NCBI GenBank assembly: GCA_903866915.1
Contig: CAIPPO010000059.1
Coordinates: forward strand, 1-32,980
Reading direction: 5' to 3'
DNA: 32,980 nt
Origin: an uncultured Mucilaginibacter sp.
GTDB lineage: Bacteria > Bacteroidota > Bacteroidia > Sphingobacteriales > Sphingobacteriaceae
The position numbers were made by a program, and so were the translations under genes. Below the pieces are notes generated by a model. It was not told the DNA's origin. It did no database searches and saw only the letters and a program-made list of their open reading frames with translations. This document shows, piece after piece, positions 7,461 to 29,745 of the stretch. Within the stretch, counting starts at the first letter, position 1; each line of letters starts with the position of its first letter.

Positions 7461-7886
7461 ATGCTTACAACCGTTCCACTGCAAATTATCGACTTACATG
7501 AAGATGGATTCCATCCGTTGATCGAGGTTTTTGTTTTTGGCAAACCATTTAAATTGGTACTTGATACCGGCGCCTCAAAAACCGCATTTGACTATGGAAC
7601 CATTCTGCTTGAAAATATTGAAATCAAATCCAGCGACCTGCTATCAACAGGCCTGTCTACCAATAGCATGGTTTCGCACACGGCTTTGATCAGCGACATG
7701 CACCTGGGCGAATTGCAGCTCGAACCATTTGAAGTTGCCGTGCTTGATCTATCGGGTATCAATATCGCTTACCGTCAATTAAATCGACCCGAAGTATTGG
7801 GCGTTTTGGGCGGCGATGTTTTGGTAAAATATAAAGCTGTGATCGACTATGGCGCTTCCAGGCTCAGTTTCTATTCCCAATCATAG
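7461..7886 (+). CDS. Retropepsin-like aspartic protease family protein
   Basis: This 141-residue protein is the size of a single retropepsin-like (clan AA) monomer. The catalytic motif LVLDTGASKTAFD puts the Asp at residue 35, and the family's second conserved element, the hydrophobic-hydrophobic-Gly near the C-terminus, appears as VLGVLGGDVLVKYKAVIDY (about 113-131). Such proteins act as homodimers, one Asp from each chain. There is no signal peptide, so it is probably cytoplasmic. It is divergent from dnaE, and its stop codon overlaps the end of the convergent T9SS gene by 6 bp. The substrate is unknown. The call is firm at family level only. Confidence 0.85.
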   Translation: MLTTVPLQIIDLHEDGFHPLIEVFVFGKPFKLVLDTGASKTAFDYGTILLENIEIKSSDLLSTGLSTNSMVSHTALISDMHLGELQLEPFEVAVLDLSGINIAYRQLNRPEVLGVLGGDVLVKYKAVIDYGASRLSFYSQS

Positions 7887-10800
7887 TTTAACAAACTTTG
7901 CTTGTCCAACCAAACTGTTGTCGGAAGAGTTAACAACTTGTATTAGGTAAGTTCCGGTCAGTAAATCGCTAACGTTTGCTCCCCAGTTGGGTTGGTTAAG
8001 CGTTGCATTACGTAATACTATTCCAAGGCTGTTACTTATTAAGACACGATAATTACCTGTACCTGATCTTGGCCCGTTGATGGTCAGGTTGATCACATTT
8101 CGGGTTGGGTTTGGGTACAATGATACTACATGATTACTTCTATCAATAATATTGATATCCACCGCATTTGAATAAGTTATATTTCCATCAATATCCTGTT
8201 GCATCAGCCGGTAAACATTTTGCCCGATGACCGGGTTTTTATCAATGAGGCCATAGTTCCCTGAATTATCCGATGAAAATAATCCGATATCAGAAAATGT
8301 ATTTCCTTTGTCGAAACTCCTTTGTACGGTAAAATGAGTATAATTCTGCTCGTTTATTGTAGCCCAGTTTAACTGTACCTGAGTACGCTGGTTAACGGGA
8401 GTACCCGTAAAATTTAAAAGTCTGTAAACATAAGCTGAATCTTCGCGAATGTTTAACCTAAAACGTGTTGACCCTAAGGAATTCGTATCCGCTCTGATGA
8501 TCGTAAAAGCATAGCCTCGGTTCTTCCGCAGGTTTATGGAATCCTTTTTATAATAGTCAACCAGCCAGACATCATATAACGCCGGCACCTGGTTTATTGC
8601 TGTAAGTTTCAATAAGTAATTCCCGTCGGCTGTTGCACCAATTTTCAGCGGTATCGACAGCACCTTTTTATTTTTAGGAAATGGCACCTGGCCAACAGCC
8701 AGCGGCACATTATCGCTTGATATACTTGAAATACTCACTGCGCCTGTGCCTGTTCGATACCTGGCATCATTTACCGGGTTGAATGCTGTAGTAGAACTGT
8801 TGTCAAAGCGAATTATACTTTCGTCGCTATTGATTGAATCTTTAGCGAATTGCAAGCGAATAAATTGATTACTGGCTGTAGCATCTACCGGCTTACCCAT
8901 AAAAAGGGTCGATCCTGCAATGGCCTGGGTATTAGTTTTGGCATTTTCATTAAAAATAAGTTGAGGCAACGAACCGGTTGCCTGCACAAAAAAGCCTACC
9001 CCACTGCCGATTATATTAGTGGCACCATTGGTTCCACCCAAGCCAGATGAACCTGCTGTATAAACGCCATAATTACCTGAACCCTGTGCGCCGGATGGTA
9101 TCAATTGATAAGAATACTTAGCAACATTAGGTGCGTAGATACCGGCGGAACTGATAGTTGCGCTATATTGATCCCAATCGATCGAACTCGCATAAGGGTT
9201 ACCTACCAGGTTTGAACCTTCGATAGCAACATTCCCGGAAAGGGCTGTATTACCGAGATTTGAAGATGCAGGGGTATACCAATCCCTAACCGTAATGACA
9301 CCTTGATTTAAGGTACCCGTAGCCATTAAGGTGTCATTTGTAGCTGGGGCACCTGCCTTGGTTAAGGTAGCCAAAGTACCTTGCTTACGGCTGCCGCGGT
9401 AATAAAACATAAAGCCATTTCCAACAGGAATGTTATAGGTGCCAGCATCGGCGTCCAACAGGTAATTGAGTGTATCGGTAATTCTGTTGATGCCCCGGAA
9501 GTTACTGGTAAGAAAAGACGAATAATTAGGTGCAAGATTTTCGCGGTAAAGATACATGGTTGGGTTACCCGACTTATCAAATCCGCCGCCAGTTCCGGTG
9601 GTACCCGTTGTATAAATTGCCCGACTAAGGTATTTGATGCTGTAAATATTGTATGAACCTACGGTTGAGCTGTAGACCGGTGAAGAAGCCAAACGATAAG
9701 CCCGGTGTTTAGTGACATAACGTTGCACATTTACATTCCCGGTAATGGAGCATCCGGCTGGAATAGCGGCAACTGTTGCTGAACCTGTGCTATCCGACAT
9801 CAATGTCAAAAAGCCATTTGCAACCAGTTTAGTATTACTGTTTATTTGCAGTATACCCTGGCTTTTGAGAAAAAAATTCTTGCCGGAAATAGTTTCGGTA
9901 CCACCTCCGGTAAAAATAACGTTGGGCAGGTAGCAGGCGTTGGTGGTTGCCATTTGCTTACCACCTGCCGAATTAAAAGTAACGCTGGCAGTTCCAAAGT
10001 TGGTGGTTCCGTAATTGTAGAAAGATCCACCTATAACCACATATCCCGTTCCGCATTTTAGCGTACTGCCTGTATTTGTGGTTAGGTCAGCTCCTGCCTG
10101 CAGGGCACAGTTGATTGCACTGAGGTCAACTATTTCGCTACCAGCATCAAGTGTAACAGCATGTCCAACGTGCAGCGAACCCGATGTTGCAGCTGCATCA
10201 ACTGTTTTGGTACCTGTACCACCAAATTCAATGTTTTCGTAAACTGATCCATCGCCCCGGCTTGCACCGTTATTGTCAATAATATTATCAACTGTGGAGC
10301 CAGACACATAATTATACACTTCCTGGTTGGTTGAACCGTTATAATTTACGGTAGCTACACCAACACCTCCGGCCTGCACAACATTATAAAAATCGAATTT
10401 ATTGCCAACATTGCCGCTTTGCGAAGTCAGGGCATTGGCATTTTGCAGAATCAGGGTTGCACTATCTGCATTGTTATGCAAATCCATGCTAAACAATGCT
10501 TCAGGCTGAAATTGAGCATGCTTAAAGTTGTTTGCACTACCATCGGTAAGGTTAATATGTCCGCCAATGGTCAGTACTCCCTGCGATAATGAGAATTGTG
10601 CATCACTGTTGCTAACAACCAGTGTATTGGCCAGGTTATCCCGGCTTTGCGTATTCAGGGTAAGATCGCCGGAAATATTTATTTTTTATATGTGAACCGC
10701 CGGCAGCTGCACCAATAGTTACCTGAGTGATATTGATAACAGAATCTGCCACCGGTGTTGAACTATCACCAACTCCGAAACTGCCGCATATGATTGTACC

Positions 10801-12225
10801 CGCCCCCTGTATATTGGTTTTTATAGTATTTACCGGCGCGGTATTCCCAGAATTGAACACTCCGGCTGTGCTGTGCTTTTGAAGGATTTGTCCGCTAACA
10901 TTTAATGCAACCGGGGCATCTACCGTAAGTGTGTTGGTTGCAGTAGCTCCGCCACTAATCATCCTGTCGCCAATAGTGATCGACGCAATCGTTTTGGGTG
11001 GAGTAGCAGTTACTTCGGGACTATTAGTATAGTTAATATTGACTCCAATATTAACCAGGTCGGTAGATTGTACGTCACCGGGATAATCTGTCGCAGGATT
11101 GGTGGTGACACCCCCATTAGTTGATCTCCAGTTATTTGGATTGTTCCATACCGTGCTTACCCCGCCGAGCCAATCATAGGATGTTGCCAATTTGCAAACA
11201 AGCGGCGTCGTTGTCGTTGCGGGCAAATGATGCGTATCACCAGGCTGGGTTGCAGTGATATTTGTTGTGCCTATACCTACAACGTGTATCAGGCCGCCAG
11301 CAGTAATGGTAGCAACAGCGGTATTACTGCTGGTATAGGTTATTGGTAGTCCGGGATAATTTGAAACAGCACCTGGTGCATAATCGGTAGTGCCGATTGA
11401 GGTTGGGTTAAGCGTTAATGTTAGTGCTGGCTTATAGTTTACCAGGTCTTTATACAATTGGAAATTAAGAAAAGTATTAAAAACGATACGATGACCTTTG
11501 TCAGAATAATGAATTCCGTCACCAAATCCTAAAGCTGGATTAATGTCGAAATTTGTGGCGGAAATACTTAAAAGCGTTAGATAATTATTGACGATCGGTG
11601 TCGCGTACGTCGCGTTAGTTGGATATTGTGCTGTTAGCTTAGTGTTAAAAGTGGCCAGATCAGCTTGTTCAGCTGCTGTTAACCCTCCCGATGAAAGGCA
11701 AACACTGCTCCCATCAAAAGCTATGCTACAGCCAGCATCAGTTGCTAAATCTCTTGGCTGGGTCCCTGTAATAATATAGGGTACACCAGCAGTATTTAAG
11801 GCATTTGTTATTTTGGTATAATTAGCCAGTGATTCAGCATTAGTATAACCATCGGCAATATCGTTAGTCGGCAGGCAAATGATCACAAAAGTTGGATGGT
11901 AGCTTATTGCCGCTGTAACATTTTGGGAAGTGTTGGGAGCGGGCGCATATCCGGGGTGCGACGAACCGGTGGGCAAACATACATAAGTGGTATTTCCCGG
12001 GTAAGCAATGTTTATTATGGTATCACCACGATTATAAAAATGCAAATCGGCCTGCATTCTATTGACAAAAGCAGAATCAGGCACTGTTGACTTCCATCCA
12101 TAGGCACTGGACGAACCCATGATAACAATGGTTCGCTTGCTTGTATTGGTCAGTTGAGCAGAAGCCGTTTGAAGCAACAGTATAGCCGCAATAAAAAATG
12201 CTAAAGATACCTTTTTAATTGACAT
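7881..12225 (-). pseudogene. SGNH hydrolase with Ig-like domain and T9SS sorting tail, split by a one-base frameshift
   Basis: Two frames (12225-10636 and about 10690-7881) join into one protein of about 1447 residues if one A is removed from the A6 run at 10682-10687; the downstream frame is open right up to that point. Order: signal peptide (residues 1-24, ending TASAQ); SGNH/GDSL hydrolase (GSS at 37-39, PTND at 119-122, DGIH at 236-239); an Ig-like Big_2-type segment (about 295-365); a long beta-rich region with repeated G/N/T strands; a fibronectin-like segment (NWATINEQNYTHFTVQRS); and a C-terminal T9SS sorting domain (SLYPNPTRNVINLTI to QAKFVKL). It was presumably exported by T9SS to the surface as an esterase acting on polymers. 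Start 12225 was chosen over 12318 because only it begins at the signal peptide. A sequencing error, recent mutation or phase variation are all possible. As written, the hydrolase half is secreted without its sorting tail. Confidence 0.8.
10682..10687 (-). other. A6 homopolymer at the frameshift site
   Basis: On the coding strand the run is six As. With five As the reading becomes CAT ATA AAA ATA AAT ATT and continues in frame as HIKINISGDLTLNTQS. As present, the frame reads HIKNKYFRRS and stops at 10636. The site needs a net one-base loss, which is not the usual -1 programmed shift. Confidence 0.8.
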
Positions 12226-12352
12226 CACGAGTTTCCAAATCGGTAGGAAGCGGAATGAGATAAGCTTTTTCAGCAAAGTTGCGAATGGTTTTTGTGCAGC
12301 AAGAAATGCAAAAATCAAGCCAATTACTTCACTTATCCCGCTTAAAGATTTA

Positions 12353-15697: not shown

Positions 15698-17647
15698 TTA
15701 TTTACCTACCATAAGTTCAACTTCTTCCTCATTTCCGTTGATGTCGTCAAGGAATTCGAAATGTGAATTTTTGCTGATAAATTCAGGTACAATATCTTTC
15801 ATTTTATTAACGACGGCAACATCGTCATATTTTTTATTCAATGCCAGCAAATGGTCAATATCGGCTACAACCTGTTTATACGGGTAGGAAATTACAGAGG
15901 CAATTTTAATTTTGGGATGATGGGTTGGAACGGTCAGCTCGCCAATGTTTAGTAACTCTTCGTAAAGCTTTTCACCTGGCCTTAAACCTGTATAAACAAT
16001 TCTGATATCCTTTTCAGGCTGAAGCCCGGCTAATTTTATCATTTTCAAGGCCAGATCGGTAATTCTCACAGGCTCGCCCATATCAAAAATAAAAATCTCT
16101 CCCCCTTTACCCATAGTGCCCGCCTCTAACACCAATTGGACGGCTTCGGGAATGGTCATAAAATAACGGGTAATATCAGGATGCGTAACAGTGACAGGCC
16201 CGCCTTTTTGTATCTGTGCTCTGAAACGTGGTATAACTGATCCGTTTGATCCAAGGACGTTGCCAAAACGGGTAGTAATAAAGCGTGTTACCGGGACCCC
16301 ATTTTTATAATTTGCCGGGCTGTCTTTTAACGACTGTATATAAATTTCTGCAATTCTCTTAGTTGTACCCATAATATTCGATGGGTTAACCGCTTTATCC
16401 GTAGAAATCATCACAAATTTTCTAACCCCAAACAATACTGAGAGATCAGCTACATTTTTAGTTCCCTGTACATTCGCGAGTACCGCCTCAGATGGGTTTT
16501 CCTCCATCATAGGAACATGTTTATAGGCAGCTGCATGAAATACAACCTCGGGCTTAAAATCTTCAAATAATTTGTATAAACGACGGTAATTGCGGATATC
16601 GGCAATAAAAATTTTAGCGCAGAGCTGAGGGAATTTTTCTTCCACTTCGAGTTGTAATTCATGCAAGGGTGATTCAGCCTGATCGCAAAGGATTACCATT
16701 GCAGGTTTGTATCCTAATACCTGCGTTACGATTTCGGAACCAATAGATCCCGCTGCACCGGTAATTAGCACACGCTTACCGAAAATATCTTCTGAGATTC
16801 GGGTGGTATCAATTTGTATAGGTTTGCGTTGCAAAAGATCTTCAATCTTAAGATCCTGCATTTGCTGTAAATTCAGTTTTCCGTAAATCCACTGGTCTGA
16901 AGGCGGAACGGTTACAATCTGAATTCCCAGAGCCAGACATTGTTCAAACGCGACCTTTTTAGTTTGCTCATCAAGGTGATGATTCATCACTATGAGTTTG
17001 TCAACCTGATACTTTTCCTTCAATTTTGCCAGTTTATCAAAGTGATAAACCCTTACTTGTTGTATCTCCTTATCAATTTTTTTGCCCCCTTCATCGATAA
17101 ACCCAACTACCGAAAAGTTAGTGTTTGCGCTTGCTTCAAGTGCCTGTTTTACCAAAACAGCGTTACTATCTGATCCATAAATTAAAACAACGGTTTTCTT
17201 TCCGGCACTATTAAAATTCAAATAGAAGTATGCGCTTTTTGCCATGGTGCGCAATAGGATTAGTAAAGTACTGGAAACCGAAAAATTGATCAATAAAACC
17301 AGGTTAATGGTAACCATATTTATTTTCATCAAATGTTCTAACCAAATATTTACAGTCAGAAGATAAATCAGACTACTGGCAAATGCTGCACCAAAAATAC
17401 GTAAAACATCACGGGTATTTGAGTAGCGGATCAAACCAATATGAACACGCATAACGTACATTACAATTGTTGAAATAACGCAATATAAGCCCGTGTAAAT
17501 GAAAAAGTATCCGCGTAAAATATTTACAAATTCAAATCGATGAACTATAAAAAAGGAAGTTGAAAAAGACCAGGCTACAATTACAAGGTCTACAAGCATA
17601 ATCATCCATCTCGGAACCACCCTGGTAAAAAGTAAGAATTTCTTCAT
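15698..17647 (-). CDS. UDP-N-acetylhexosamine 4,6-dehydratase, PglF/CapD/WbpM-like membrane protein
   Basis: This 649-residue protein has about four N-terminal membrane spans (residues of about 12-115), a first Rossmann-like domain (VLIYGSDSNAVLVKQ, near 150), and a C-terminal SDR dehydratase domain. That domain shows the NAD motif VLITGAAGSIGSEIV (near 293) and the catalytic region ISTDKAVNPSNIMGTTKR, where the usual Tyr of the YxxxK pair is Met, as in this subfamily. Such enzymes make the UDP-4-keto-6-deoxy-GlcNAc intermediate. With the PglE, PglD and PglC homologues nearby, the expected pathway is UDP-N,N'-diacetylbacillosamine. It is the last gene of the polysaccharide locus and is separated from the beta-helix gene by 340 bp holding a candidate promoter, so it is probably transcribed separately. 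The family is certain; the product sugar is inferred. Confidence 0.88.
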   Translation of the reverse strand: MKKFLLFTRVVPRWMIMLVDLVIVAWSFSTSFFIVHRFEFVNILRGYFFIYTGLYCVISTIVMYVMRVHIGLIRYSNTRDVLRIFGAAFASSLIYLLTVNIWLEHLMKINMVTINLVLLINFSVSSTLLILLRTMAKSAYFYLNFNSAGKKTVVLIYGSDSNAVLVKQALEASANTNFSVVGFIDEGGKKIDKEIQQVRVYHFDKLAKLKEKYQVDKLIVMNHHLDEQTKKVAFEQCLALGIQIVTVPPSDQWIYGKLNLQQMQDLKIEDLLQRKPIQIDTTRISEDIFGKRVLITGAAGSIGSEIVTQVLGYKPAMVILCDQAESPLHELQLEVEEKFPQLCAKIFIADIRNYRRLYKLFEDFKPEVVFHAAAYKHVPMMEENPSEAVLANVQGTKNVADLSVLFGVRKFVMISTDKAVNPSNIMGTTKRIAEIYIQSLKDSPANYKNGVPVTRFITTRFGNVLGSNGSVIPRFRAQIQKGGPVTVTHPDITRYFMTIPEAVQLVLEAGTMGKGGEIFIFDMGEPVRITDLALKMIKLAGLQPEKDIRIVYTGLRPGEKLYEELLNIGELTVPTHHPKIKIASVISYPYKQVVADIDHLLALNKKYDDVAVVNKMKDIVPEFISKNSHFEFLDDINGNEEEVELMVGK

Positions 17648-17987: not shown

Positions 17988-19427
17988 CTATTTATTTGCC
18001 CCCCTAACAAGCGATTCGTGCAATGAATTACCATCACCGTCTTTCGTTTTTGATATTTTGTTAGCTTTCAAACCACCTTTTTTATCTTCGTAGAGGTATG
18101 GCGCATTTTTATCATTTCTGACAATCACATTATTTTTTATTGTATTGTTTTGGGTCTTAGACCCGGTTCCTATCTGGGCCACATAAATGCTGGCGGCATC
18201 CCGGCCCGGGTATGGCTCTCCGATAGTATTATTTATTATGGTATTATTTTCAGAATCTTTTGACGCCCATTTGTCACCTATCAATGGGTCACCATAATTA
18301 GGCCGGGAATATTTGGCCAAAGGCGGCCGCTTTTTAGTCCAATCACTTTCTATGGCAATTCCGGCCATGTAATATCCAGATATAGTATTTCCATCGGCAA
18401 CGTTATCCGTCACGTTTACAGCCATATATATACCATAATTAGTATATGTTTCTATGCTGTTTTTATAAATGTAGTTTGAATGAGCACCCGTGTAAATATT
18501 TATAGCTGCTTCGGCACCGGGTGGATTATAGCCCAAAATCTGTTTAAATGTATTATTAGCAATTGTATCATTAAAACATCCATAATCCAGAACTACCCCA
18601 GACGAACCAAATCCGATACAAGTGTTATTACTGATTACACATTTATTTGACGCATTTGCCAAATAAATAGACCTGTGATGCTGTTTAAAGCAATAATTAT
18701 CTTTAACTATACTGCCAATACAAGCAAGCATATCAACCGCATACCTGCCAAGCGATATGTTATTTTTCTCAACTATATTACCTATACATGGCTCGGTCGG
18801 AGGGACTATATTGCCATTGTTAAAAAAACCGGCATAAGGTTCAGAGGCACCAAATATTCCAATACCGACTCCCGGCTTTATCGGTCTTTCAAAACCGACC
18901 ATTTTATTATTTATTAATTTGTTGTAGTTTGAATTTTTTTCGAGGAGGATGCCAAATTTTTCGACATTGCTATTAGTGAATCCGAAGATATAATTTCCCT
19001 CAAAAGTACAGTTCGTGCAGCCGTAAGCGTGTATGCCAAAAATATCGCCGTTAGACAAATCAAGATTTACACGCACAAAGCAACCGTCAACAGGTGTGCC
19101 ATTCAAGTAAGCTCCGTCCAGAACTAGTATTCCGATAGGAGATTTCCCGGTTCCTTTTAGTATCCCATAACAAACAAAACTCTTCAGCCCATTTTTGATT
19201 TTCACCTGGCTAACCAAATAGGTACCACCCTGTGGCAGGTAAACACCGCTATGTGCGGCTGTTGCCTGGTCTATAGCTGTCTGGATACTTTTTGTATCGT
19301 CAGTTACGCCATCACCAACAGCGCCAAATGCTTTAACATTTAACCCGGAAGTATCCTGAGCCGATGATGATTGAACATAAATTAAGATCAGCGCAAAAAA
19401 AAGAAAAAGGGTCAAATTTTTTTTCAT
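17988..19427 (-). CDS. Secreted pectate-lyase-superfamily right-handed beta-helix protein
   Basis: This 479-residue protein starts with a signal peptide (MKKNLTLFLFFALILIYVQS, probably cleaved after SSAQ near residue 24). It is followed directly by the pectate lyase superfamily N-cap, VKAFGAVGDGVTDDTKSIQ, and GVYLPQGGTYLVS. The rest is a ladder of Asn/Gly/Ile-rich rungs (NYIFGFTNSNV, NNTCIGFGSSGV, NNTIGEPYPGRD) typical of parallel beta-helices that bind, cleave or epimerise polysaccharides. No catalytic triad can be assigned by eye. Start 19427 is chosen over 19547 because the extra 40 residues precede the signal peptide and a TATTTTTG promoter lies between the two starts. It sits between the PglE and PglF homologues, suggesting a role on the polymer of this locus (lyase, hydrolase or epimerase), or attachment; this is inference. 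Confidence 0.8.
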   Translation of the reverse strand: MKKNLTLFLFFALILIYVQSSSAQDTSGLNVKAFGAVGDGVTDDTKSIQTAIDQATAAHSGVYLPQGGTYLVSQVKIKNGLKSFVCYGILKGTGKSPIGILVLDGAYLNGTPVDGCFVRVNLDLSNGDIFGIHAYGCTNCTFEGNYIFGFTNSNVEKFGILLEKNSNYNKLINNKMVGFERPIKPGVGIGIFGASEPYAGFFNNGNIVPPTEPCIGNIVEKNNISLGRYAVDMLACIGSIVKDNYCFKQHHRSIYLANASNKCVISNNTCIGFGSSGVVLDYGCFNDTIANNTFKQILGYNPPGAEAAINIYTGAHSNYIYKNSIETYTNYGIYMAVNVTDNVADGNTISGYYMAGIAIESDWTKKRPPLAKYSRPNYGDPLIGDKWASKDSENNTIINNTIGEPYPGRDAASIYVAQIGTGSKTQNNTIKNNVIVRNDKNAPYLYEDKKGGLKANKISKTKDGDGNSLHESLVRGANK

Positions 19428-19477: not shown

Positions 19478-19507
19478 CAAAAATAAATGTTTTAGAATTT
19501 ATTACAA
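19478..19507 (-). promoter_or_regulatory. Bacteroidota-type promoter of the beta-helix gene
   Basis: The minus strand has TTG (19505-19507), 19 bp, then TATTTTTG (19478-19485), an exact TAnnTTTG match with the expected spacing. It lies in the 149-bp gap after the aminotransferase and about 50 bp before the ATG at 19427. This indicates the beta-helix gene can be transcribed independently of the upstream operon. Confidence 0.6.
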
Positions 19508-19576: not shown

Positions 19577-20713
19577 TTAAAAGCAAGCTTTGATATGATC
19601 AACTACTCTTTCCAGGTCAAATTCTGTAAGATTTGAACCCGAAGGCAAGCAAAGGCCATCATTAAATAATTTTTCACTAAGGCCATTAACGTAGGAAGGA
19701 TACGCTTCGAAAACCGGTTGAAGATGCATTGGTTTCCATAATGGGCGCGACTCGATATTTTCTTCTTCAAGAGAGAGCCTGATTGCTTCGCGGTCGACGC
19801 CACCAGTTTTTGTTTTGTCAACTGTGATCGTTGTAAGCCAGCGGTTACTGAAAAGCCTTTCAGGTTCGGGCAAAAATGTTATACCGGGCAGATGTGAAAT
19901 GTGTTTAACGTAATATGCATATACACCTCGCCTTTGTTTTACCCGCTGCGCAAGCACCTGCATTTGGCCACGACCGATACCAGCACAAACATTACTCATG
20001 CGGTAATTATATCCAATCTCTGAATGCTGGTAATGCGGCGCCGGATCGCGCGCCTGGGTTGATAAAAAACGCGCCTTCTCGATCAGTTTGCCGGAGTCAG
20101 ATATAAGAGCCCCGCCGCCGCTGGTGGTTATAATCTTATTACCATTAAAGGATAAAACACCCATAAGTCCGAATGTACCGGCTGCTTTTCCATTGCATGT
20201 TGAGCCTAATGCTTCGGCTGCATCTTCAATTACTGGAATATCGTATACCGCTGCAATTGCAATAATACGCTCTATCTGGCATGGCATACCATATAAGTGT
20301 ACCGGGATTATTGCTTTTGGTTTCTTGCCTTTCGCTATCCGATCTTTTATTGCCTGTTCCAATAACTCGGGACTCATATTCCAGGTATCGGGCTCACTAT
20401 CAATAAAAATTGGCACTGCACCCAGATAGACGATAGGATTGGCAGAAGCCGAAAAAGTGAAACTCTGGCAAATAATCTCGTCACCCGGTCCAACGCCCAG
20501 CATAATGAGTGCTAAATGCAATGCTGCAGTTCCGGAACTTAAAGCCGCCGCGTGCTTTGCGCCGGTAAATGATTGCAGATCCTGCTCAAAACCATTAACG
20601 TTGGGCCCAAGTGGGGCTATCCAATTGGTATCAAACGCCTCTTTAACATAATTAAATTCTTCACTACCCATGTGCGGGCTGGAAAGCCAAACTTTAGCAG
20701 CTATATTTTTCAT
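19577..20713 (-). CDS. DegT/DnrJ/EryC1-family sugar aminotransferase, PglE-like
   Basis: This 378-residue PLP enzyme has the family hallmarks: ALSSGTAALHLAL (about 57-69), QSFTFSASANPI (83-94), the PLP-pyridine Asp in IEDAAEALGS (Asp164) and the Schiff-base Lys193 in LSFNGNKIITTSGGG. The N-terminal WLSSPHMGSEEF matches the PglE-type UDP-4-amino-4,6-dideoxy-GlcNAc transaminases, which aminate the 4-keto product of PglF. It starts 11 bp after the PglD-like stop, so the two are co-transcribed. The sub-family assignment rests partly on the PglD/PglC neighbours. Confidence 0.88.
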   Translation of the reverse strand: MKNIAAKVWLSSPHMGSEEFNYVKEAFDTNWIAPLGPNVNGFEQDLQSFTGAKHAAALSSGTAALHLALIMLGVGPGDEIICQSFTFSASANPIVYLGAVPIFIDSEPDTWNMSPELLEQAIKDRIAKGKKPKAIIPVHLYGMPCQIERIIAIAAVYDIPVIEDAAEALGSTCNGKAAGTFGLMGVLSFNGNKIITTSGGGALISDSGKLIEKARFLSTQARDPAPHYQHSEIGYNYRMSNVCAGIGRGQMQVLAQRVKQRRGVYAYYVKHISHLPGITFLPEPERLFSNRWLTTITVDKTKTGGVDREAIRLSLEEENIESRPLWKPMHLQPVFEAYPSYVNGLSEKLFNDGLCLPSGSNLTEFDLERVVDHIKACF

Positions 20714-20724
20714 TTAGTTTTAAG

Positions 20725-21321
20725 TTATTTAATGATCCTGCCAGGGTTACCTACAACAACAGCAAAATCGGGTATATCTTTTATAATCACAGCGCCGGCA
20801 CCTATCGTGGCCCATTTACCTATTTTAATCCCCTGAATTACAGAAGCCCCAATCCCGATATGGGTGCCTTCACCAACTGAAACATTACCGGCAAGTGCGG
20901 CGTTGGGTGAAATATGGACGAAATTGCCAATTTGATTATCGTGATCAACCGAACAGTTGGTGTTTAATATACAATGCTGCCCAATTTTGCTTTCCGCATT
21001 GATGCTCACGCCCGCCATTACCGCCGTACCGATGCCAATAACCACCGAAGGTGATACATAAGCAAAAGGATGCACACCCAAAGCATAGCGCAAATGAGGG
21101 TATTTGCCAGCGATTTCTTTACGGTATTTATTATTGCCGATAGCTATAATCAGTTGATGATCAGCGGGCAAATTGGCCGGGTCGAACTTTCCTAATATGA
21201 GGTGACCCAAAAGTTTTCCTGTTTGTGCATCATCCCATATGCCGCCAATCGGTATTTGTTGCGCTTCAACAATTTCAAGCACAACTTTGGCATGGCCCCC
21301 TGCTCCGTACAGATAGATCAT
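20725..21321 (-). CDS. UDP-amino-sugar N-acetyltransferase, PglD-like
   Basis: This 198-residue protein has the two-part PglD build: an N-terminal nucleotide-binding Rossmann-like unit (IYLYGAGGHAKVVLEIVEA, residues 2-20) and a C-terminal left-handed beta-helix of hexapeptide repeats (about 90-198: AVMAGVSI, IGQHCI, IGNFVHI, and the cap ending VVVGNPGRII). The catalytic His region is NCSVDHDNQIG near residue 125. The family acetylates the 4-amino group made by PglE. Its ATG overlaps the stop of the PglC-like gene by 4 bp (ATGA type), showing translational coupling. Confidence 0.9.
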   Translation of the reverse strand: MIYLYGAGGHAKVVLEIVEAQQIPIGGIWDDAQTGKLLGHLILGKFDPANLPADHQLIIAIGNNKYRKEIAGKYPHLRYALGVHPFAYVSPSVVIGIGTAVMAGVSINAESKIGQHCILNTNCSVDHDNQIGNFVHISPNAALAGNVSVGEGTHIGIGASVIQGIKIGKWATIGAGAVIIKDIPDFAVVVGNPGRIIK

Positions 21322-21926
21322 TTGTATGTTCCTCCAAATTTTTCAATAGTAACATGCCCGTCCTGGTTTATCCCCTCTGATTTAAACACTTTGGCGAAAG
21401 TCATCCAAATGATTTTTAAGTCAAGTAAAAAACTGATGTGTTCGGCATACCAAACGTCATATTTAAACTTTTGTTCCCAGCTTAAAGTATTTCGTCCGTT
21501 CACCTGCGCCCATCCTGTTATTCCAGGTCTTACGTCGTGGCGATGGCTTTGCTCGTCGTTATATAAAGGAAGGTATTCAACCAGCAGCGGACGCGGCCCC
21601 ACAAGGCTCATATCGCCTTTTATAACGTTTAATAACTGAGGTATTTCATCGAGCGAGGTTTTTCTTATGAATGCTCCGACAGGGGTTAATCTATCAGCAT
21701 CGGGCAGTAAGTTACCCTTTGGGTCCTTATTGTCATTCATGGTTTTAAACTTTAACACCCTGAAAATACGGGCGTTTTTCCCTGGCCGGCTTTGTGTAAA
21801 AAATACGCTCCCCTTGTTTGCGATAAGCAAAGATATCACCACGATGATAAAGAAAGGGAGCAATACGATAAACCCCGATATACTTAATATCAGATCAATT
21901 AAACGCTTAAAAAAATTACGATACAA
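21318..21926 (-). CDS. Initiating phosphoglycosyl transferase, PglC-like (bacterial sugar transferase)
   Basis: This 202-residue monotopic transferase has a re-entrant N-terminal hydrophobic segment (about 10-38), then RPGKNARIFRVLKFKTM, the catalytic Asp-Glu pair in TSLDEIPQLLNV, and SLVGPRPLLVEYLPLY and RPGITGWAQVNGRN. It is the minimal short form (about 200 residues), as in Campylobacter PglC, not the long WbaP/WcaJ form with extra membrane helices. It transfers a sugar-1-phosphate from a UDP-sugar to undecaprenyl phosphate and so starts the repeat unit on the cytoplasmic face. It overlaps the upstream glycosyltransferase by 11 bp and the downstream PglD-like gene by 4 bp. Confidence 0.92.
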   Translation of the reverse strand: MYRNFFKRLIDLILSISGFIVLLPFFIIVVISLLIANKGSVFFTQSRPGKNARIFRVLKFKTMNDNKDPKGNLLPDADRLTPVGAFIRKTSLDEIPQLLNVIKGDMSLVGPRPLLVEYLPLYNDEQSHRHDVRPGITGWAQVNGRNTLSWEQKFKYDVWYAEHISFLLDLKIIWMTFAKVFKSEGINQDGHVTIEKFGGTYK

Positions 21927-23109: not shown

Positions 23110-25003
23110 TCGGGTCTATATTGTGTTTATACCATAATTGAAAGCAGTATAAAGACCATAATTTAAAGGTATGGTCACTTCTATCAGACAAATGCTCAGA
23201 CACGAGCTTTTTTACCATTTCGGGATTAAATATCTTTTGGCTTTGCAGAAAAACAGGATCTGTAAATTCCAATAGCGAATCTTTCAATTCGCGCTTTAAC
23301 CATGTTCCAACTGGCACGCCAAAACCTATTTTGGGCGCTTCGAAGTGGCCAGAAGGTAAATAATTTTAAAAAGCATCCTTTAAAATCTTCTTTTTGTTGT
23401 TGCCATCCAATAAAAATTTATCCGGAAAGGTATTTGTCAATTCAAAAATCCGATGATCCAGATATGGCGCCCGGCATTCTATCGACGTTAACATACTGGC
23501 CCGATCAACCTTTACACACATATCTCCATCCAGAGAAATTAGACGGTCAATATTGCGCATCATTTTTAATGACGAATAGTTTGCGAATTTATCTTTTAAA
23601 CTTGTTTCAATAAATTCTGGCCCCTGCAAATCGTCAAGCAATATCTCACTTAATTCCGATTCCTGGAAACCCATCGAGATTACCTTTAAAAAAGAGCGGT
23701 AAATATCTTTGTCGTGGCTTTTTATCAGCTTTAACATTCTGAACTTAAAGCCATTTCTGTTTTCTTCCCTTTCTGGCAACAAATTAACGATCTTCGCTGA
23801 TAGTTCTTTAGACAGGTAATTTAAAAAGAACAATTTTTTTCCATAAAGCTCAACCAGGTACCTGTTATATCCACCGAAGGCTTCGTCTCCGCCGTCGCCG
23901 GTTAAAGCAACTGTAACATGATCTGAAGTGATCTTGGATACCCAATAACTAGGTAATGCCGATGAATCGGCAAAGGGTTCATCATAGTTCAGCACAATCT
24001 TTTCTATGTCCTTGCGCATGTCGTCAAAATCAAGATCGAACTGATGGTGTTCTGAACCGATAAATTTTGCTACCCTTTGCGCCTGGGCAGTTTCATCAAA
24101 GGATTTGTAATGACTGAAACCGATTGAAAAAGTCTTTATTCTTTGGCCAGATTGAGAGGCCATGGAGTAGGCTATAATACTGGAATCAATACCTCCGCTC
24201 AGGAATACGCCTAAAGGCACATCCGACACCAACCGCATTTTTGTAGATTCATTTACAACCTGTAAAACCTGTTGCTTGGCCTCGTCATACGATTTTACAA
24301 GCCCTGTGTTCTGCACCGGTTTGGTGTCCCAATATTTATGCTTACTCAGGCTTAAGTCGTCAACATTAACAATAAGATAATGTGCTGGTTCGAGCTTGTA
24401 AATATTTTTATAAATAGTTAGAGGGCTTGGAATAAAAGTATAGCGCAAATAAGCTCTCAACGCTGGCTTATCGATTTCCAAAGGAAACTCCGGACGGATA
24501 CAGTTAACAATACTCTTAAGTTCAGATGCAAATACAAATTTATTACTGTCTTTGTAATAAATCAATGGTTTTTCGCCCAGTCGGTCCCTGGCTATAAATA
24601 GCTGTTTATTAACTTTATCTAAAATAGCAAAAGCAAACATACCGTTTAAATGATCGAGGCATTTAACGCCATAAGCTATGTAGGCTTTCAGGAGTACTTC
24701 GGTATCACTTTTTGTTTTGAAAGTATAGTTTTTCTTTTCAAGATCTGCCCGTATTTTTTGATAGTTATATATTTCGCCGTTAAAAACGATAACATAATTT
24801 CCAGTCTCATCAATAATGGGCTGTTTTCCTGAAACAAGGTCTATGATAGACAAACGCCGCATACCCAGGGCAACATTACCTTCCTGGTAATAACCGTCAT
24901 CCTCGGGCCCCCGATGAATGATCTGATCATTCATCCGGTTGATTATCTCTTTCGACTTATCGGGATTGAACTGCTTTGAAACAAAGCCATTAATTCCACA
25001 CAT
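23084..25003 (-). pseudogene. Asparagine synthase (glutamine-hydrolysing) family amidotransferase, interrupted by an in-frame TAA
   Basis: The frame would encode 639 residues, but codon 546 is TAA (23368-23366); reading resumes in the same frame (NYLPSGHFEAPKIGFGVPVG) for a further 93 residues to the natural stop at 23084. No frameshift is needed. The N-terminal class II glutaminase is intact (Cys2 in MCGINGFVS, then IHRGPEDDG, FNGEIYNYQ), and so is the ATP pyrophosphatase loop FLSGGIDSS (about 267-275). Length and context fit the WbpS-type subgroup in polysaccharide loci, which is linked to amidation of sugar carboxylates, as well as AsnB. A truncated 545-residue protein would lack the last helices of the synthetase domain and is probably inactive, though this is not certain. 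A suppressor, read-through or sequencing error are alternatives. Confidence 0.85.
23366..23368 (-). other. Premature TAA in the asparagine-synthase-like gene
   Basis: The codons read GAT GCT TTT TAA AAT TAT. Homologues usually have a Lys-type codon here, and a single A-to-T change (AAA to TAA) would explain the stop. Confidence 0.75.
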
Positions 25004-25186: not shown

Positions 25187-26323
25187 TTATTCACCAAAAA
25201 TAACTCTTTTTATGTAATCTGTATATGAAATTATAATTCTCACTACTTTATCCGATACGTTAGGCATGCTATAATCCGCTACAATTCTGAAATTTCTTTT
25301 TGCACCCCGGTTTTGCTGCTTCAGTTGGGTCAGTCCCTGCATGATTCGCTCCGGATTAAGACCAACCATCATTACCGATGCTTCTTCCATCGCCTCGGGC
25401 CGTTCATGCGCCTCTCTGATGTTCAAGGCGGGGAAATTCAGAATCGACGACTCTTCCGAAATCGTTCCGCTATCCGAAAGTACCGCATACGATTTTAGTT
25501 GAAGCGCATTATAATCGTTAAATCCAAGCGGCTTTAAAAATTGTATCGCCGGATGCACCTGCAAATTTTTCGTCTCCATCATTTTTCTTGTACGAGGATG
25601 CGTGGTGACAATGATAGGGAAGTTGTAGGTCGTCGCAATTAAATTCAAACTGTCTATTAATCCATTAAAGTTTTTTTCGTTGTTTATGTTTTCCTCCCGG
25701 TGCGAGGATACAACGAAATATTTGCCTTCCTCAAGGTTAAGCCTGGTCAAAACATCTGATTTTTCGATATCCGCCTTATAGTAGTGCAACACCTCGAACA
25801 TCGGCGAACCCGTTTTGATTACCCTATCGGCGGGCAGCCCTTCCCGCAAAAGGTATTCGCGCGCAATGTCACTGTAGGTTAGATTGATATCCGATATGTG
25901 ATCAACAATTTTTCTATTAATCTCCTCAGGTACGCGCTGATCAAAACAACGGTTACCAGCTTCCATATGAAATATAGGGATATGACGTTTTTTAGCAGGA
26001 ATAGTACACAGGCAACTATTTGTATCGCCTAAAACCAAAAAGGCATCCGGCTTTTCTTTTTCCAATAAGGGGTCTATTTTAATCAATATCTGTCCCACGG
26101 TTTCTACAGCGGTTGCTCCTGCAGCATTTAAAAAATAATCCGGTTTCCTGATCTTCATGTCCGAGAAGAATATTTCATTCAATTCGTAGTCGTAATTTTG
26201 GCCGGAATGAACCAAAATGTGTTCGATGGCATCAGATTCATCCAATGCTGCCATAACCCTTGATAGTCGAATAATTTCAGGACGCGTGCCTACCACGGTC
26301 ATAACTTTAAGTTTCAATTTCAT
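25187..26323 (-). CDS. capG: UDP-N-acetylglucosamine 2-epimerase family, CapG/FnlC/WbjD-like
   Basis: This 378-residue epimerase has the family start MTVVGTRPEIIRLSRVM, LVHSGQNYDYELNEIFF, LGDTNS, and HMEAGNRCFDQRVPEEINRK (about 140-159). The last of these is typical of the FnlC/CapG branch rather than WecB. That branch catalyses the final C2 epimerisation giving UDP-N-acetyl-L-fucosamine. Catalytic-site elements SHREEN and SDSGTISEES are present. It follows capF by 32 bp and capE lies just before that, the same order as in Staphylococcus capsule and E. coli O26-type loci. After it there is a 183-bp gap before the asparagine-synthase-like gene. I saw no exact promoter in that gap. Confidence 0.9.
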   Translation of the reverse strand: MKLKLKVMTVVGTRPEIIRLSRVMAALDESDAIEHILVHSGQNYDYELNEIFFSDMKIRKPDYFLNAAGATAVETVGQILIKIDPLLEKEKPDAFLVLGDTNSCLCTIPAKKRHIPIFHMEAGNRCFDQRVPEEINRKIVDHISDINLTYSDIAREYLLREGLPADRVIKTGSPMFEVLHYYKADIEKSDVLTRLNLEEGKYFVVSSHREENINNEKNFNGLIDSLNLIATTYNFPIIVTTHPRTRKMMETKNLQVHPAIQFLKPLGFNDYNALQLKSYAVLSDSGTISEESSILNFPALNIREAHERPEAMEEASVMMVGLNPERIMQGLTQLKQQNRGAKRNFRIVADYSMPNVSDKVVRIIISYTDYIKRVIFGE

Positions 26324-26355
26324 TTTTTATGTTTTGCCGCAGGCTTATCATTTAA

Positions 26356-27471
26356 TTAAACGTTCTCAAAATAGGTGTCAGGATCAGCCGGATCAAAAAA
26401 CTCATTAATCCAGAATATAGTGTACAACTCCTCTAAACCAATATTTTTAATATTATGGGTATACCACACGGGCATATCCACGTAAGCAGGTTCCTCACCC
26501 GAAAGATAAAAATCCACCACTTCATCGGTCCCGATTCTACGCAACTGAATAAGCGCTTCCCCCTTAATTACAGCAAATCGTTCAATTTTTCTGGTGTGAA
26601 AATGATTGCCTCTAGTTATTCCGGGCACCGTAGTAGAAAAAGAAACCTGCCCCCCAACATTTAACCTGATTACTTCTACAAATGCCCCACGTGGGTCGGT
26701 ATGCTTTGTGAATTTAACCGGGAAATGTTCTTTTATGTCAATATAACTTCTGAAAGTATTAAATAAATTCAGCTCAAATGCATTTCGTATCGATGGCACA
26801 ATACCCGCATCCTGGTATTGCTTTTTGTAAACTTCAAGCAGCGCCAATATATTGCTTACTTTTTCTTCATGGGTATGCTGGACAACCAACTTTTCGTTAC
26901 CGCAATTATCAATTTCGGAGATTATTATTTTTACCAGGTCACCTACATATATCAGTTTTACCTTGCTGTCAACCTCAATATGCGGTTGTTCTCCATGACT
27001 AAGCTTGTGGCAAAATGTAGCTATAAACGAATTGTAATAGGGATGCCCAAATGGACCGAATACATTCGGAATAACCAACCCGGTGAATCTGCTACCCGAG
27101 CGTTTTGCCCAATCTGCAAGAGCCTGCCTGCCGGCCATTTTACTTTTTCCATATTCATTTTCACGCTCCTCCTGCGAGGAAGACGAAAATAGTACATGGG
27201 CTTTGCTGTCGGTTTGCTCCAGCGCTGTTACCAGTTTACTAACCAAACCAATATTATTTTGATAGATGACTTCCGGATTATTATGCCTGTTCATGGCGGC
27301 CAGATGTACAATAACATCACATTGAGCTACAAAGTTTGACAGTTTTTCAAAATCGTCGAAAAAGCTACGGTGAAAGTGTACCCGCTCGAATTTCTCGGGC
27401 AAAAGACCGAGCGCATTATACAAATGGCTACCTATAAAGCCTGCGTTTCCTGTAACACCTATTTTAATCAT
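26356..27471 (-). CDS. capF: Bifunctional NAD(P)-dependent reductase with cupin domain, CapF/FnlB/WbjC-like
   Basis: This 371-residue protein, almost exactly the CapF length, has an N-terminal SDR domain with GVTGNAGFIGSHL (residues 5-17) and the YxxxK pair in ENEYGKSKMAG. A C-terminal cupin follows (about 250-371) with the metal-site stretch GNHFHTRKIERFAVIKGEA. In the L-FucNAc pathway the cupin epimerises C3 of the CapE product and the SDR domain reduces the 4-keto group. It lies 20 bp after capE and 32 bp before capG. Confidence 0.93.
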   Translation of the reverse strand: MIKIGVTGNAGFIGSHLYNALGLLPEKFERVHFHRSFFDDFEKLSNFVAQCDVIVHLAAMNRHNNPEVIYQNNIGLVSKLVTALEQTDSKAHVLFSSSSQEERENEYGKSKMAGRQALADWAKRSGSRFTGLVIPNVFGPFGHPYYNSFIATFCHKLSHGEQPHIEVDSKVKLIYVGDLVKIIISEIDNCGNEKLVVQHTHEEKVSNILALLEVYKKQYQDAGIVPSIRNAFELNLFNTFRSYIDIKEHFPVKFTKHTDPRGAFVEVIRLNVGGQVSFSTTVPGITRGNHFHTRKIERFAVIKGEALIQLRRIGTDEVVDFYLSGEEPAYVDMPVWYTHNIKNIGLEELYTIFWINEFFDPADPDTYFENV

Positions 27472-27491
27472 TACTGCTCAGTTGGCTTTAT

Positions 27492-28529
27492 TTACATCGG
27501 ATATTGGATGGCATCATTATCCCCAAATACTTCTTTTCTGATCAGGGGCAACTTTGATAAAAGGTCTTTCATTGCTCCCACACCTAATTGTTCAGTATTA
27601 TGTGAATGATAATCTTCTACTTTAGAAATATCTGTTTCGCCTTCAAAGAAATACCTGTTATAATTCAGATCGCGGTTATCTGCGGGTATGCGATAAAAAT
27701 CGCCCATATTCTCAGCTTTAACCATTTCTTCGCGGGTGCACAAGGTTTCGTATAGCTTTTCGCCGTGCCGTGTCCCTATTATTTTAATATCATTATTCGA
27801 ATTACTCAATTCTTTCAATGCCAGTGCCAGATCGCCTATGGTGCCGGCAGGAGCTTTATTTACGAACAGATCGCCCTGATTGCCGTGCTTAAAGGCAAAA
27901 AGAACCAGATCAACGGCATCTTCCAATGACATTAAAAAACGGGTCATCTTGGGATCGGTAACGGTTAAAGGTTTCCCTTCTTTTATTTGTTTCAGGAATA
28001 AGGGAATAACAGAGCCTCGCGATCCCATAACGTTACCGTAGCGGGTTAAACAAACCGTTGTCGTATTATCGATGATATTTCTGGAGGCAGCAATGGCAAC
28101 TTTCTCCATCAATGCTTTTGAAATACCCATGGCGTTTATTGGATAAGCAGCTTTATCAGTGCTTAAGCAAATCATCTTTTTTACTTTATTCTCAACGGCG
28201 GCATCAATCGCATTTTGTGTTCCGAAAACGTTTGTTTTGGTAGCCTCTATCGGGAAAAATTCGCAGGAAGGAACTTGCTTAAGCGCTGCAGCGTGAAATA
28301 CGAAGTCGACACCACGCATCGCTTTTTCAATGCTGTTATAATCTCGTACGTCTCCTATATAAAATTTAAGTTTCGCATTATTGAGCTGGTTCCGCATATC
28401 GTCCTGTTTTTTTTCATCGCGGGAAAAAATCCGGATCTCGTTAATATCCGTTTCCAAAAAACGGTGTAAAACTGCGTTTCCAAACGAGCCAGTACCGCCC
28501 GTAATTAATAATGTCTTGTCTTTAAACAT
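27492..28529 (-). CDS. capE: UDP-N-acetylglucosamine 4,6-dehydratase/5-epimerase, CapE/FnlA/WbjB-like
   Basis: This 345-residue SDR enzyme starts MFKDKTLLITGGTGSFGN, with the NAD motif at about residues 9-16, and has CLSTDKAAYPINAMGISKA, the Met-for-Tyr catalytic motif of this dehydratase family. It lacks the N-terminal membrane domain of PglF. The length and the adjacent capF and capG give the specific call: first step of UDP-L-FucNAc synthesis. The start at 28529 is preferred over 28568, which would overlap the upstream glycosyltransferase and add 13 residues before the normal N-terminus. Confidence 0.92.
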   Translation of the reverse strand: MFKDKTLLITGGTGSFGNAVLHRFLETDINEIRIFSRDEKKQDDMRNQLNNAKLKFYIGDVRDYNSIEKAMRGVDFVFHAAALKQVPSCEFFPIEATKTNVFGTQNAIDAAVENKVKKMICLSTDKAAYPINAMGISKALMEKVAIAASRNIIDNTTTVCLTRYGNVMGSRGSVIPLFLKQIKEGKPLTVTDPKMTRFLMSLEDAVDLVLFAFKHGNQGDLFVNKAPAGTIGDLALALKELSNSNNDIKIIGTRHGEKLYETLCTREEMVKAENMGDFYRIPADNRDLNYNRYFFEGETDISKVEDYHSHNTEQLGVGAMKDLLSKLPLIRKEVFGDNDAIQYPM

Positions 28530-28539
28530 CTTTATCAGG

Positions 28540-29745
28540 TTAAATAATTGTCGATTTTTCTTTAGCAATCAAACCGCCGATAAACTCACTGAATAAATGA
28601 ACATATTTTCGGTAGTCGAAAGAATTCTCTGCTTGTTTTCTGGCATTTACTCTCATCATTGCCCGTTCCTCTTTGCTCTTATTCATCGCTTTTTTCAATG
28701 CTGCTATCAGGGTATCCACATGGTAATCCTTACAAATTATACCCTCTATGTCGTCGTGGATATAATTCGCCAGGTCACTGGTTAGGTTACAAATTACCGG
28801 TGTACCAGCTGTTAAGCTTTCCACAACTTTGGTAGGAAAACCAGCGGTTGATACCCTGTTAATTTTTCTTAGTAACACACTGAAATCCGAAGTTCGTACC
28901 AGGTTGATTGCATTCGAATGATGAACATGACCGACATTTTCGATACAAGGCGGTATAGTAGTATAATTCCTCGTTCTTAAGGCTGGGTATTGCAACATTT
29001 GTTCGTTGGTAACCCCGGCCACCCGCAGATAAATTTTTTCGCCGAGCGGGTCTGTTCTGATGATGGCTTCAAGATAGTTGTCAAATAAATCCTTATAGCC
29101 TGGTGTACCGGTATAGGCAATAGATAGGCGCTTATTTAATGAAATATCAACATTTGGTTCAAAATCGTTTGTATCAATAGTTGGCGGAACAATGATTGAG
29201 TTGCAGTTTTTTGATTTGTAGTGACGATCGAGAAAAGTGCTTATCGAGATGATATTTTTACCCTTCACGCTTAATTTCCGCATAGCCCATTCATAGTTTA
29301 AATGAATCGGCGAAAGATATCCAAATACTTTATTTTTGGGTTGATACCATTCTACGGCGTCAAAAACCAAAGGAATATTATGCTTTTTGCACCAGGGCAG
29401 CAATTTCAAAAAATAAGGTGTGTAGCCTCCATAAAGTAAAACCACTGCAGGTTTTTCTTCCATTGCATCCAACCAGTGAATTGTTTTCCAGCCAATATTT
29501 AAATATTTAAAGTATTTTAACGCGGATCTTTTGTAATCGGGCCTTTCGTCTAAGGTATAAACTTCAAAACCTTCAAACTCCTGAAATTTGGGATTTTTGC
29601 TGTTTTCCGGCTGCCCTGTACCAATTATTACCTTGTACCCTGCATCCCGTAACGATTTCGCATTCCCTAAAACTCTCCTGGCAGCAGCCCCGCCATAAGG
29701 AAATGCAAACGACCCTACATAAACCACTGTTTTTTGTTCACTCAT
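28540..29745 (-). CDS. Glycosyltransferase family 4 (GT-B fold)
   Basis: This 401-residue enzyme starts with VVYVGSFAFPYGGAAARRVL (residues 6-25), the N-terminal loop common in GT4 enzymes. It has VFDAVEWYQPKNKVFG near the middle and a donor-site stretch GFPTKVVESLTAGTPVICN (about 320-338) with the conserved Glu. There is no signal peptide or membrane span. It ends 10 bp before capE, so it is co-transcribed with the L-FucNAc genes. In several known loci an L-FucNAc transferase (WbuB-type) sits next to fnlABC, which makes this a candidate; the donor sugar is inferred. Confidence 0.85.
   Translation of the reverse strand: MSEQKTVVYVGSFAFPYGGAAARRVLGNAKSLRDAGYKVIIGTGQPENSKNPKFQEFEGFEVYTLDERPDYKRSALKYFKYLNIGWKTIHWLDAMEEKPAVVLLYGGYTPYFLKLLPWCKKHNIPLVFDAVEWYQPKNKVFGYLSPIHLNYEWAMRKLSVKGKNIISISTFLDRHYKSKNCNSIIVPPTIDTNDFEPNVDISLNKRLSIAYTGTPGYKDLFDNYLEAIIRTDPLGEKIYLRVAGVTNEQMLQYPALRTRNYTTIPPCIENVGHVHHSNAINLVRTSDFSVLLRKINRVSTAGFPTKVVESLTAGTPVICNLTSDLANYIHDDIEGIICKDYHVDTLIAALKKAMNKSKEERAMMRVNARKQAENSFDYRKYVHLFSEFIGGLIAKEKSTII

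Follow-up and report, generated by a model that had tools for sequence, protein, structure and literature searches.

Inside a surface-polymer locus of an uncultured Mucilaginibacter sp. (contig CAIPPO010000059.1), one gene encodes a predicted secreted beta-helix protein belonging to a tailspike family that is otherwise phage-only in the collections searched. What is unusual is the family, of which this is a secreted cellular member, and not the role we propose for it. Positions given below refer to the window, the whole stretch of 32,980 nucleotides that was analyzed. The explanation we favor, and consider fairly probable, is that the protein is an endo-depolymerase acting on the polymer of its own locus through a groove on its PB1 face, and that its gene is an insertion with a promoter of its own. 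In this scheme the protein would be exported by Sec and fold into a right-handed beta-helix; the PB1 face, on the same core as in PPpW-4-type tailspikes, would bind and cleave polysaccharide; and endo-cleavage of the polysaccharide made by the locus would trim, clear or release polymer in the periplasm or at the cell surface. The gene would be an addition to the locus, lodged between pglE and pglF. We infer its export and enzymatic activity, which residues are catalytic, what the substrate is, that the promoter is used, and which way the gene moved; the features of the gene itself are as follows.

17988..19427, minus strand: predicted secreted right-handed beta-helix protein, 479 aa, with a phage-tailspike-like core at residues ~28-474 (ORF, Pfam, homology, model)
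19356..19427, minus strand: putative Sec-type signal peptide spanning residues 1-24, its cleavage site placed approximately (direct reading)
18672..18677, minus strand: codons of H251 and R252, which open a PB1 strand and are kept by all 10 aligned members (alignment and model)
18342..18350, minus strand: codons of E360, S361 and D362, at the end of a PB1 strand; E360 in 9 and D362 in 10 of 10 aligned members (alignment and model)

The protein and its fold

A preliminary description of this DNA had placed a 479-residue gene at 17988-19427, giving no strand, and an open reading frame is found at exactly that place on the minus strand. Its N-terminus, MKKNLTLFLFFALILIYVQSSSAQ, reads clearly as a Sec signal peptide, by direct inspection of the translation, and would direct export by Sec; residues 1-23 have low confidence in the structure model. 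Matches above Pfam cut-offs are Beta_helix (47 bits), Pect-lyase_RHGA_epim (45.8) and NosD (45.3). GH28 (PF00295) is absent from the Pfam matches at E 0.1, and membership in that family was rejected. The GC content of the gene, 38.9%, is similar to that of the pglF and asnB genes; its GC3, 35.0%, is the lowest among 13 window genes by 1.5 points, from which no conclusion is drawn. PADLOC gave no match. AlphaFold2 run on the single sequence gave no usable fold (pLDDT 33), and run with a ten-sequence alignment that includes nine relatives it gave a right-handed beta-helix with pLDDT 84 and pTM 0.87. This model, together with the Pfam matches, bears out the beta-helix fold that had been proposed beforehand.

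Full-length relatives found are phage tailspikes

A tblastn search of 50,697 phage records returned matches in 108, with the Pseudomonas phage PPpW-4 showing 31% identity over 429 residues, or 90% of the window protein (E 4e-52). Among the best 20 of the 108 records, two, both PPpW-4, cover more than 80% of the window protein; ten come from Ackermannviridae-type phages, with 29-30% identity over 72%; and the remaining eight, from Haloarcula and Vibrio phages, show 56-68% coverage at 23-26% identity. The PPpW-4 domain as query matches 12 phage records, from the same phages as before. In IMG/VR, spike L007 is 37% identical across residues 28-474. The IMG/VR relatives, L007 (on the same contig as L093) plus L087-L095, amount to nine loci, two of which are copies of named phages (L092 of PPpW-4, L095, judging by its length, of Salmonella phage P46FS4); the eight contigs found by an additional scan were every one already in this set. 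Most of the 80 loci from the first IMG/VR search match the N-terminal GDGxTDDT region alone and were left out. Model phrog_24578 matches residues 35-437 (E 3e-20), and among viral structure models the best are the PPpW-4 "probable tail spike" (E 3e-29) and an unnamed 861-residue protein (2.7e-28), with the third far behind at 1.8e-11. The PPpW-4 spike has annotated virion, holin, endopeptidase and terminase genes as neighbors, and L007, L087 and L088 lie in a phage setting by reading of their translations. In plasmids the window protein has six weak matches, all confined to residues 18-176, and the PPpW-4 domain has none. A scan with six short exact peptide patterns turned up a single weak match, N-terminal, in genome contigs and nothing in viral contigs. 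Among the papers listed, we found no measured activity for any member of this sequence family, the PPpW-4 spike being annotated only, and their titles and abstract openings showed no tailspike homolog within a polysaccharide locus.

The window protein contains the whole helix core, 29-41% identical to the domains of nine phage proteins. The core of the PPpW-4 spike (BAO20711.1, V5YUX4) aligns with residues 34-462 at 31% identity, and the two share motifs around HR, SGYYMAG, ESDW/ETDW, YSRPNY and YPGR. Ackermannviridae-type spikes, from Dickeya phage phiDP23.1 (the only one of the four with taxonomy given), Shigella phage Ag3 and Salmonella phages SKML-39 and P46FS4, align over residues 42-385 at 29-30% and keep HR and ESDW, but are more distant than PPpW-4. 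The architectures differ outside the core. About 235 residues precede it in PPpW-4 and about 460 in phiDP23.1; an N-terminal extension of at least 91 residues is found in eight of the nine phage members (L095 is cut at a contig end), and since L093 has just 15 residues there, the extension is not universal. The window protein instead has a signal peptide in that place. In all nine phage members the core is followed by a C-terminal module at least some 100 residues long (~100 in PPpW-4), mostly ending WFE..R.F or similar, and the window protein ends where this module starts. Its gene, moreover, lies in a polysaccharide locus and not among virion or lysis genes. In an unrooted tree of the ten sequences, the window protein groups with the long Ackermannviridae branch (0.917).

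Given that its full-length sequence relatives are phage spikes, the gene might be the decaying remnant of a prophage tailspike; the reading frame is intact, however, with a signal peptide and a promoter match in front, and neither reading of the window ORFs nor, for those scanned, profiles revealed further phage genes, which makes this origin very improbable.

The PB1 face and its conserved residues

Neighbors of the model among PDB structures include AlgE6/AlgE4 (Z ~36), the Sf6 tailspike (33.6), K5 lyase (33.2), NosD (32.5), phi29 gp12 (31.7), RbmB (31.4), PfbA (30) and the Dettilon and CBA120 tailspikes, and many of them are polysaccharide-active proteins. Because the fold is shared with the adhesin PfbA, NosD and phi29 gp12, it does not prove catalysis. 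Seventeen residues are invariant in all ten aligned sequences, including H251, R252, Y331 and D362, and E360 and W363 are kept in nine of ten. In pectate-lyase-fold enzymes the active site lies on PB1. Between positions 180 and 440 there are 14 charged or aromatic residues under strong conservation, and 12 of them lie no more than three residues from a PB1 strand (Fisher p 1.5e-4, with the PB1 strands chosen by hand from the model after conservation was known). For a glycoside hydrolase, E360 and D362 are candidate catalytic acids.

These residues bear on whether the protein cuts anything at all. A non-catalytic polysaccharide-binding or surface protein would hold or organize the polymer without cleaving it, and PfbA, a sequence match over the N-terminus as well as a structural one, offers a model for such a protein; nor is the catalytic set of a known family recognizable, and GH28 is missing from the Pfam matches. 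Against this, relatives that share 29-41% identity all keep H251, R252 and D362, and nearly all keep E360, beside PB1 strands; such conservation of charged residues on the PB1 face fits a cutting groove, though binding could also preserve it. We regard a purely binding role as rather unlikely.

The nature of a cleavage reaction is a further question, for the A-modules of the mannuronan C5-epimerases AlgE4 and AlgE6 are the top PDB match both by structure (rmsd 1.7-1.8, 22% identity) and by sequence, and one might propose a polysaccharide lyase or C5-epimerase, like RbmB or AlgE, with a uronic acid of the polymer as its target. The AlgE catalytic residues are Tyr149, Asp152, His154 and Asp178 (PMC7385640). 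Of these, just Asp178 of AlgE4 has an aligned counterpart in the sequence alignment, D232 (codon 18732-18734), a position occupied by Asn, Ser or Gln in the nine phage relatives, and the window protein has no His between residues 134 and 249. Because the Tyr/Asp/His set is not recognizable, membership in the AlgE-type epimerases fails on sequence and was rejected.

The surrounding locus

The neighboring genes used in the argument are listed here.

19577..20713, minus strand: pglE-like / LegC-family aminotransferase, upstream neighbor (profile matches)
15698..17647, minus strand: pglF/CapD-like membrane nucleotide-sugar dehydratase, downstream neighbor (profile matches)
20725..21321, minus strand: pglD/NeuD-type sugar acetyltransferase (profile matches)
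21318..21926, minus strand: pglC-type phosphoglycosyl transferase, first polymer sugar by family (profile matches)
25187..28568, minus strand: wecB, wbjC-like and fnlA-like genes, likely UDP-L-FucNAc route (wecB alone of the three above NCBIfam cut-off)
28540-29745: second glycosyltransferase (by reading)
19478..19507, minus strand: match to the Bacteroidota-type promoter TTG-N19-TATTTTTG, ending 50 nt before the ATG (motif match)

The same strand also carries, upstream, glycosyltransferases, an asnB-like gene and a MurJ/Wzx-type flippase, and the helix gene is encoded inside a surface-polymer gene cluster. The "pglE" gene scores best with a LegC-family aminotransferase model (393.9 bits against a cut-off of 420), and the "pglF" gene, a membrane CapD/PglF-type dehydratase, falls below all cut-offs shown; the pathway names are therefore approximate. 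Among the locus genes named, pglD, wecB and murJ alone pass an NCBIfam cut-off, and so the sugars are inferred. As a surface-polymer locus it probably draws on L-FucNAc and a bacillosamine-type 4-amino sugar.

For a lyase or epimerase a uronic acid would be needed, and here the genome offers one UDP-sugar dehydrogenase (PF03721), while the asnB-like amidotransferase of the locus may hint at an amidated uronic acid. That sole PF03721 match, however, lies on another contig. With the structural likeness to AlgE and the precedent of RbmB, encoded in the gene cluster of its own polymer (PMC11637428), on one side, and the missing AlgE residues on the other, we consider a lyase or epimerase unlikely but worth keeping in view, and a glycoside hydrolase somewhat more likely than a lyase.

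The asnB-like gene (23366-25003, minus strand) has an in-frame stop after ILKDAF, past which the same frame runs on for about 90 codons that read as the remainder of the protein, as if by a nonsense change or an assembly error.

A possible insertion with a putative promoter of its own

The helix gene stands apart from its neighbors. The gap from the pglE-like aminotransferase gene to it is 149 nt and from it to the pglF-like gene 340 nt, and further upstream pglD and pglC overlap by 4 bases and pglC and a glycosyltransferase gene by 11, with 11 nt between pglE and pglD. We take TTG-N19-TATTTTTG to be the Bacteroidota promoter consensus. With 2 matches in the whole window against 0.95 expected, about chance level, the motif by itself is weak; within the 149-nt gap it arises in 36 of 20,000 order-1 simulated sequences of like composition. 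The earlier suggestion of an own promoter thus holds up in that a motif match is present 50 nt 5' of the ATG and the upstream genes overlap or nearly touch, and we infer that the gene may be transcribed separately.

Its distribution suggests an insertion. Searched by sequence, 41 relatives, 201 family genomes and 395 class genomes yielded no other full-length match; neither a two-sequence profile run on 296 phylum genomes nor a ten-sequence profile run on 301 family and 395 class genomes turned up another full-length copy in a cell. These genome sets overlap, each containing the genome of the window; other phyla, such as Pseudomonadota, were covered by the scan with six peptide patterns alone, and metagenomes lay outside the search. 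Partial matches in 23 other genomes (E 1e-8) extend over profile positions 2-159 of 457 only and, covering just the N-terminal part, were rejected as orthologs. Pectate-lyase-fold matches elsewhere in the same genome are, among the matches listed, on three other contigs, and L002, the genome's other pectate-lyase-fold protein by sequence, matches residues 25-88 only. As a single cellular copy was found, the link between protein and locus is known from one instance.

At E 1e-130, 44 of 201 family genomes have the aminotransferase; with four same-genus genomes added, our survey comprises 47 loci besides that of the window. Left out were the non-family genomes with the aminotransferase, G028 (L142, in which no helix gene was noticed) and G038, and also L211-L214. 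Both pglE-like and pglF-like genes were recognized in 21 of the 47 loci, and lie within 1 kb on the same strand in 15 of these 21, counting G088, where pglC lies between them. Profiles flagged no helix gene between pglE and pglF in any of the 21. In G154 (gyrB 86% identical to that of the window, pgl genes 57-77%), 467 nt separate pglE from pglF. With pglE and pglF close together and no helix gene between them in relatives, the window gene appears to have been inserted between the two. Whether it stays with pglCDE/F in related genomes had been proposed as a check; in the genomes searched it does not.

The junction may be insertion-prone. In G021 it holds two opposite-strand genes (L137:6945-9571), presumably DUF1800- and DUF1501-like. 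As a separate observation, in G019 a GH125 alpha-mannosidase gene (L139:12869-14278), with an export-type N-terminus by reading, follows pglF.

Beta-helix proteins in other pglE-bearing loci

Beta-helix genes are commoner in pglE-bearing loci than chance would have it. In stretches of up to 20 kb around pglE, 10 of the 47 other loci encode a beta-helix protein above Pfam cut-offs. PF13229 occurs in nine loci against 1.24 expected in 848 kb (P 6e-6 if loci are independent) and PF12708 in five against 0.54 expected in the same 848 kb (P 2.4e-4 if loci are independent); these P values treat related genomes as independent, and the background was estimated by scanning genomes in six frames, while PF13229 was counted in the proteins of profile-picked ORFs. 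In 14 of the 47 loci the profiles picked out 18 ORFs, of which 14 were run against Pfam; a candidate in L194 was dropped at 18.6 bits, below cut-off. G165 is counted under PF12708 only, its PF13229 match being among the genome-scan matches listed and absent from the protein scan. Three further loci (G006, G116 and G190), outside the ten, were added by homology to the helix family of L138, L140 and L141, their proteins being below Pfam cut-offs or having no Pfam match; the family profile was built from those three surveyed loci, which match by construction. Contig ends cut some loci short (L138 6.3 kb, L184 4.5 kb, L201 8.1 kb). As 34 of the 47 loci have no beta-helix protein by profiles, such a protein is not required.

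By reading, these helix proteins mostly begin with signal or lipoprotein peptides; one is a fragment. They (L138:43-1290, L140:6857-8032, L135:9912-11285 and others) share the setting and the Pfam fold family of the window protein but are not orthologous to it, as one would predict were each adapted to a polymer of its own; where they align with it, they do so mainly over the N-terminal third.

This enrichment bears on the idea that the enzyme acts on a foreign polysaccharide, from food or a neighbor's coat, and sits in the locus by chance. Its phage homologs presumably attack the polymers of other bacteria, a promoter match precedes the gene, the relatives searched lack a copy, and the genome's other pectate-lyase-fold matches, among those listed, lie on three contigs, with L002 beside an enoyl-CoA-hydratase-like gene by reading. 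Set against these points are the excess of beta-helix genes in such loci and the surroundings, where no catabolic gene set was noticed beside the helix gene (ORFs by reading and profile scans). We judge action on a foreign substrate improbable, and return to cleavage of the locus's own polymer as the preferred reading. The original proposal of an enzyme that edits the polymer made here therefore stands in part: full-length tailspike homology and the helix proteins in 10 of 47 loci favor it, and a conserved linkage to pglCDE/F is not supported.

Two groups of helix proteins recur. One, from pglE loci, comprises L138:43-1290, L140:6857-8032, L141:2815-3993, L178:13534-18645, L188:13636-14751, L202:5411-6622 and L203:725-3104; several have a DGSxDYTxxLQxAIN-like start, and Pfam recognizes the family weakly or not at all. 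A second, with members of about 515-580 residues (L097-L104), is found in eight genomes of a single genus, next to a gene resembling a glycosyltransferase; in the two loci read in wider context, L133:9627-11183 and L134:8117-9664, it is inside a polysaccharide-type cluster.

Precedents and possible origin

The preliminary description took such an enzyme to be undescribed for this gene set, as far as its author knew, and here precedents speak against a novelty of kind. RbmB is a beta-helix lyase, encoded in the Vibrio cholerae biofilm (rbm) gene cluster, that cleaves VPS and disrupts biofilms, with rbmB deletion accompanied by excess VPS (PMC11637428), and AlgL is an alginate lyase within the alginate operon that clears periplasmic polymer (PMC8829089). 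RbmB resembles the window protein as a secreted beta-helix encoded in the cluster of its own polymer (Z 31.4, 303 residues aligned), but identity over the structural alignment is 18%, RbmB is absent from the PDB sequence matches, the polymer is another one, and of the two RbmB alone has a demonstrated activity.

Tentatively, and with less confidence than we attach to the proposed function, we suggest that the locus took over a phage tailspike domain, gaining a signal peptide and losing the C-terminal module, as a maintenance enzyme for its own coat, or else that the phage core came from such enzymes. If the phage core was recruited from bacterial enzymes, this gene would be the first cellular relative of the spike family in the collections searched. 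If transfer in either direction is true, the cellular and phage enzymes would cut related linkages, and the host locus would predict the substrate of the phage. A free-standing, secreted cellular member of the spike family beside the genes for its probable substrate could serve as a test case for the origin and target of the domain, as the sugars made by the locus can be compared with what the spikes degrade. More broadly, surface-polymer loci of this bacterial family carry mutually divergent beta-helix proteins above chance, each a candidate cleaving enzyme that comes with a hint of its substrate.

Elsewhere in the window, a protein of 871 residues bearing a tail for T9SS sorting adjoins a GDSL-lipase-like protein (7881-12318, minus strand), the two genes sitting between what read as dnaE- and gyrB-like genes.
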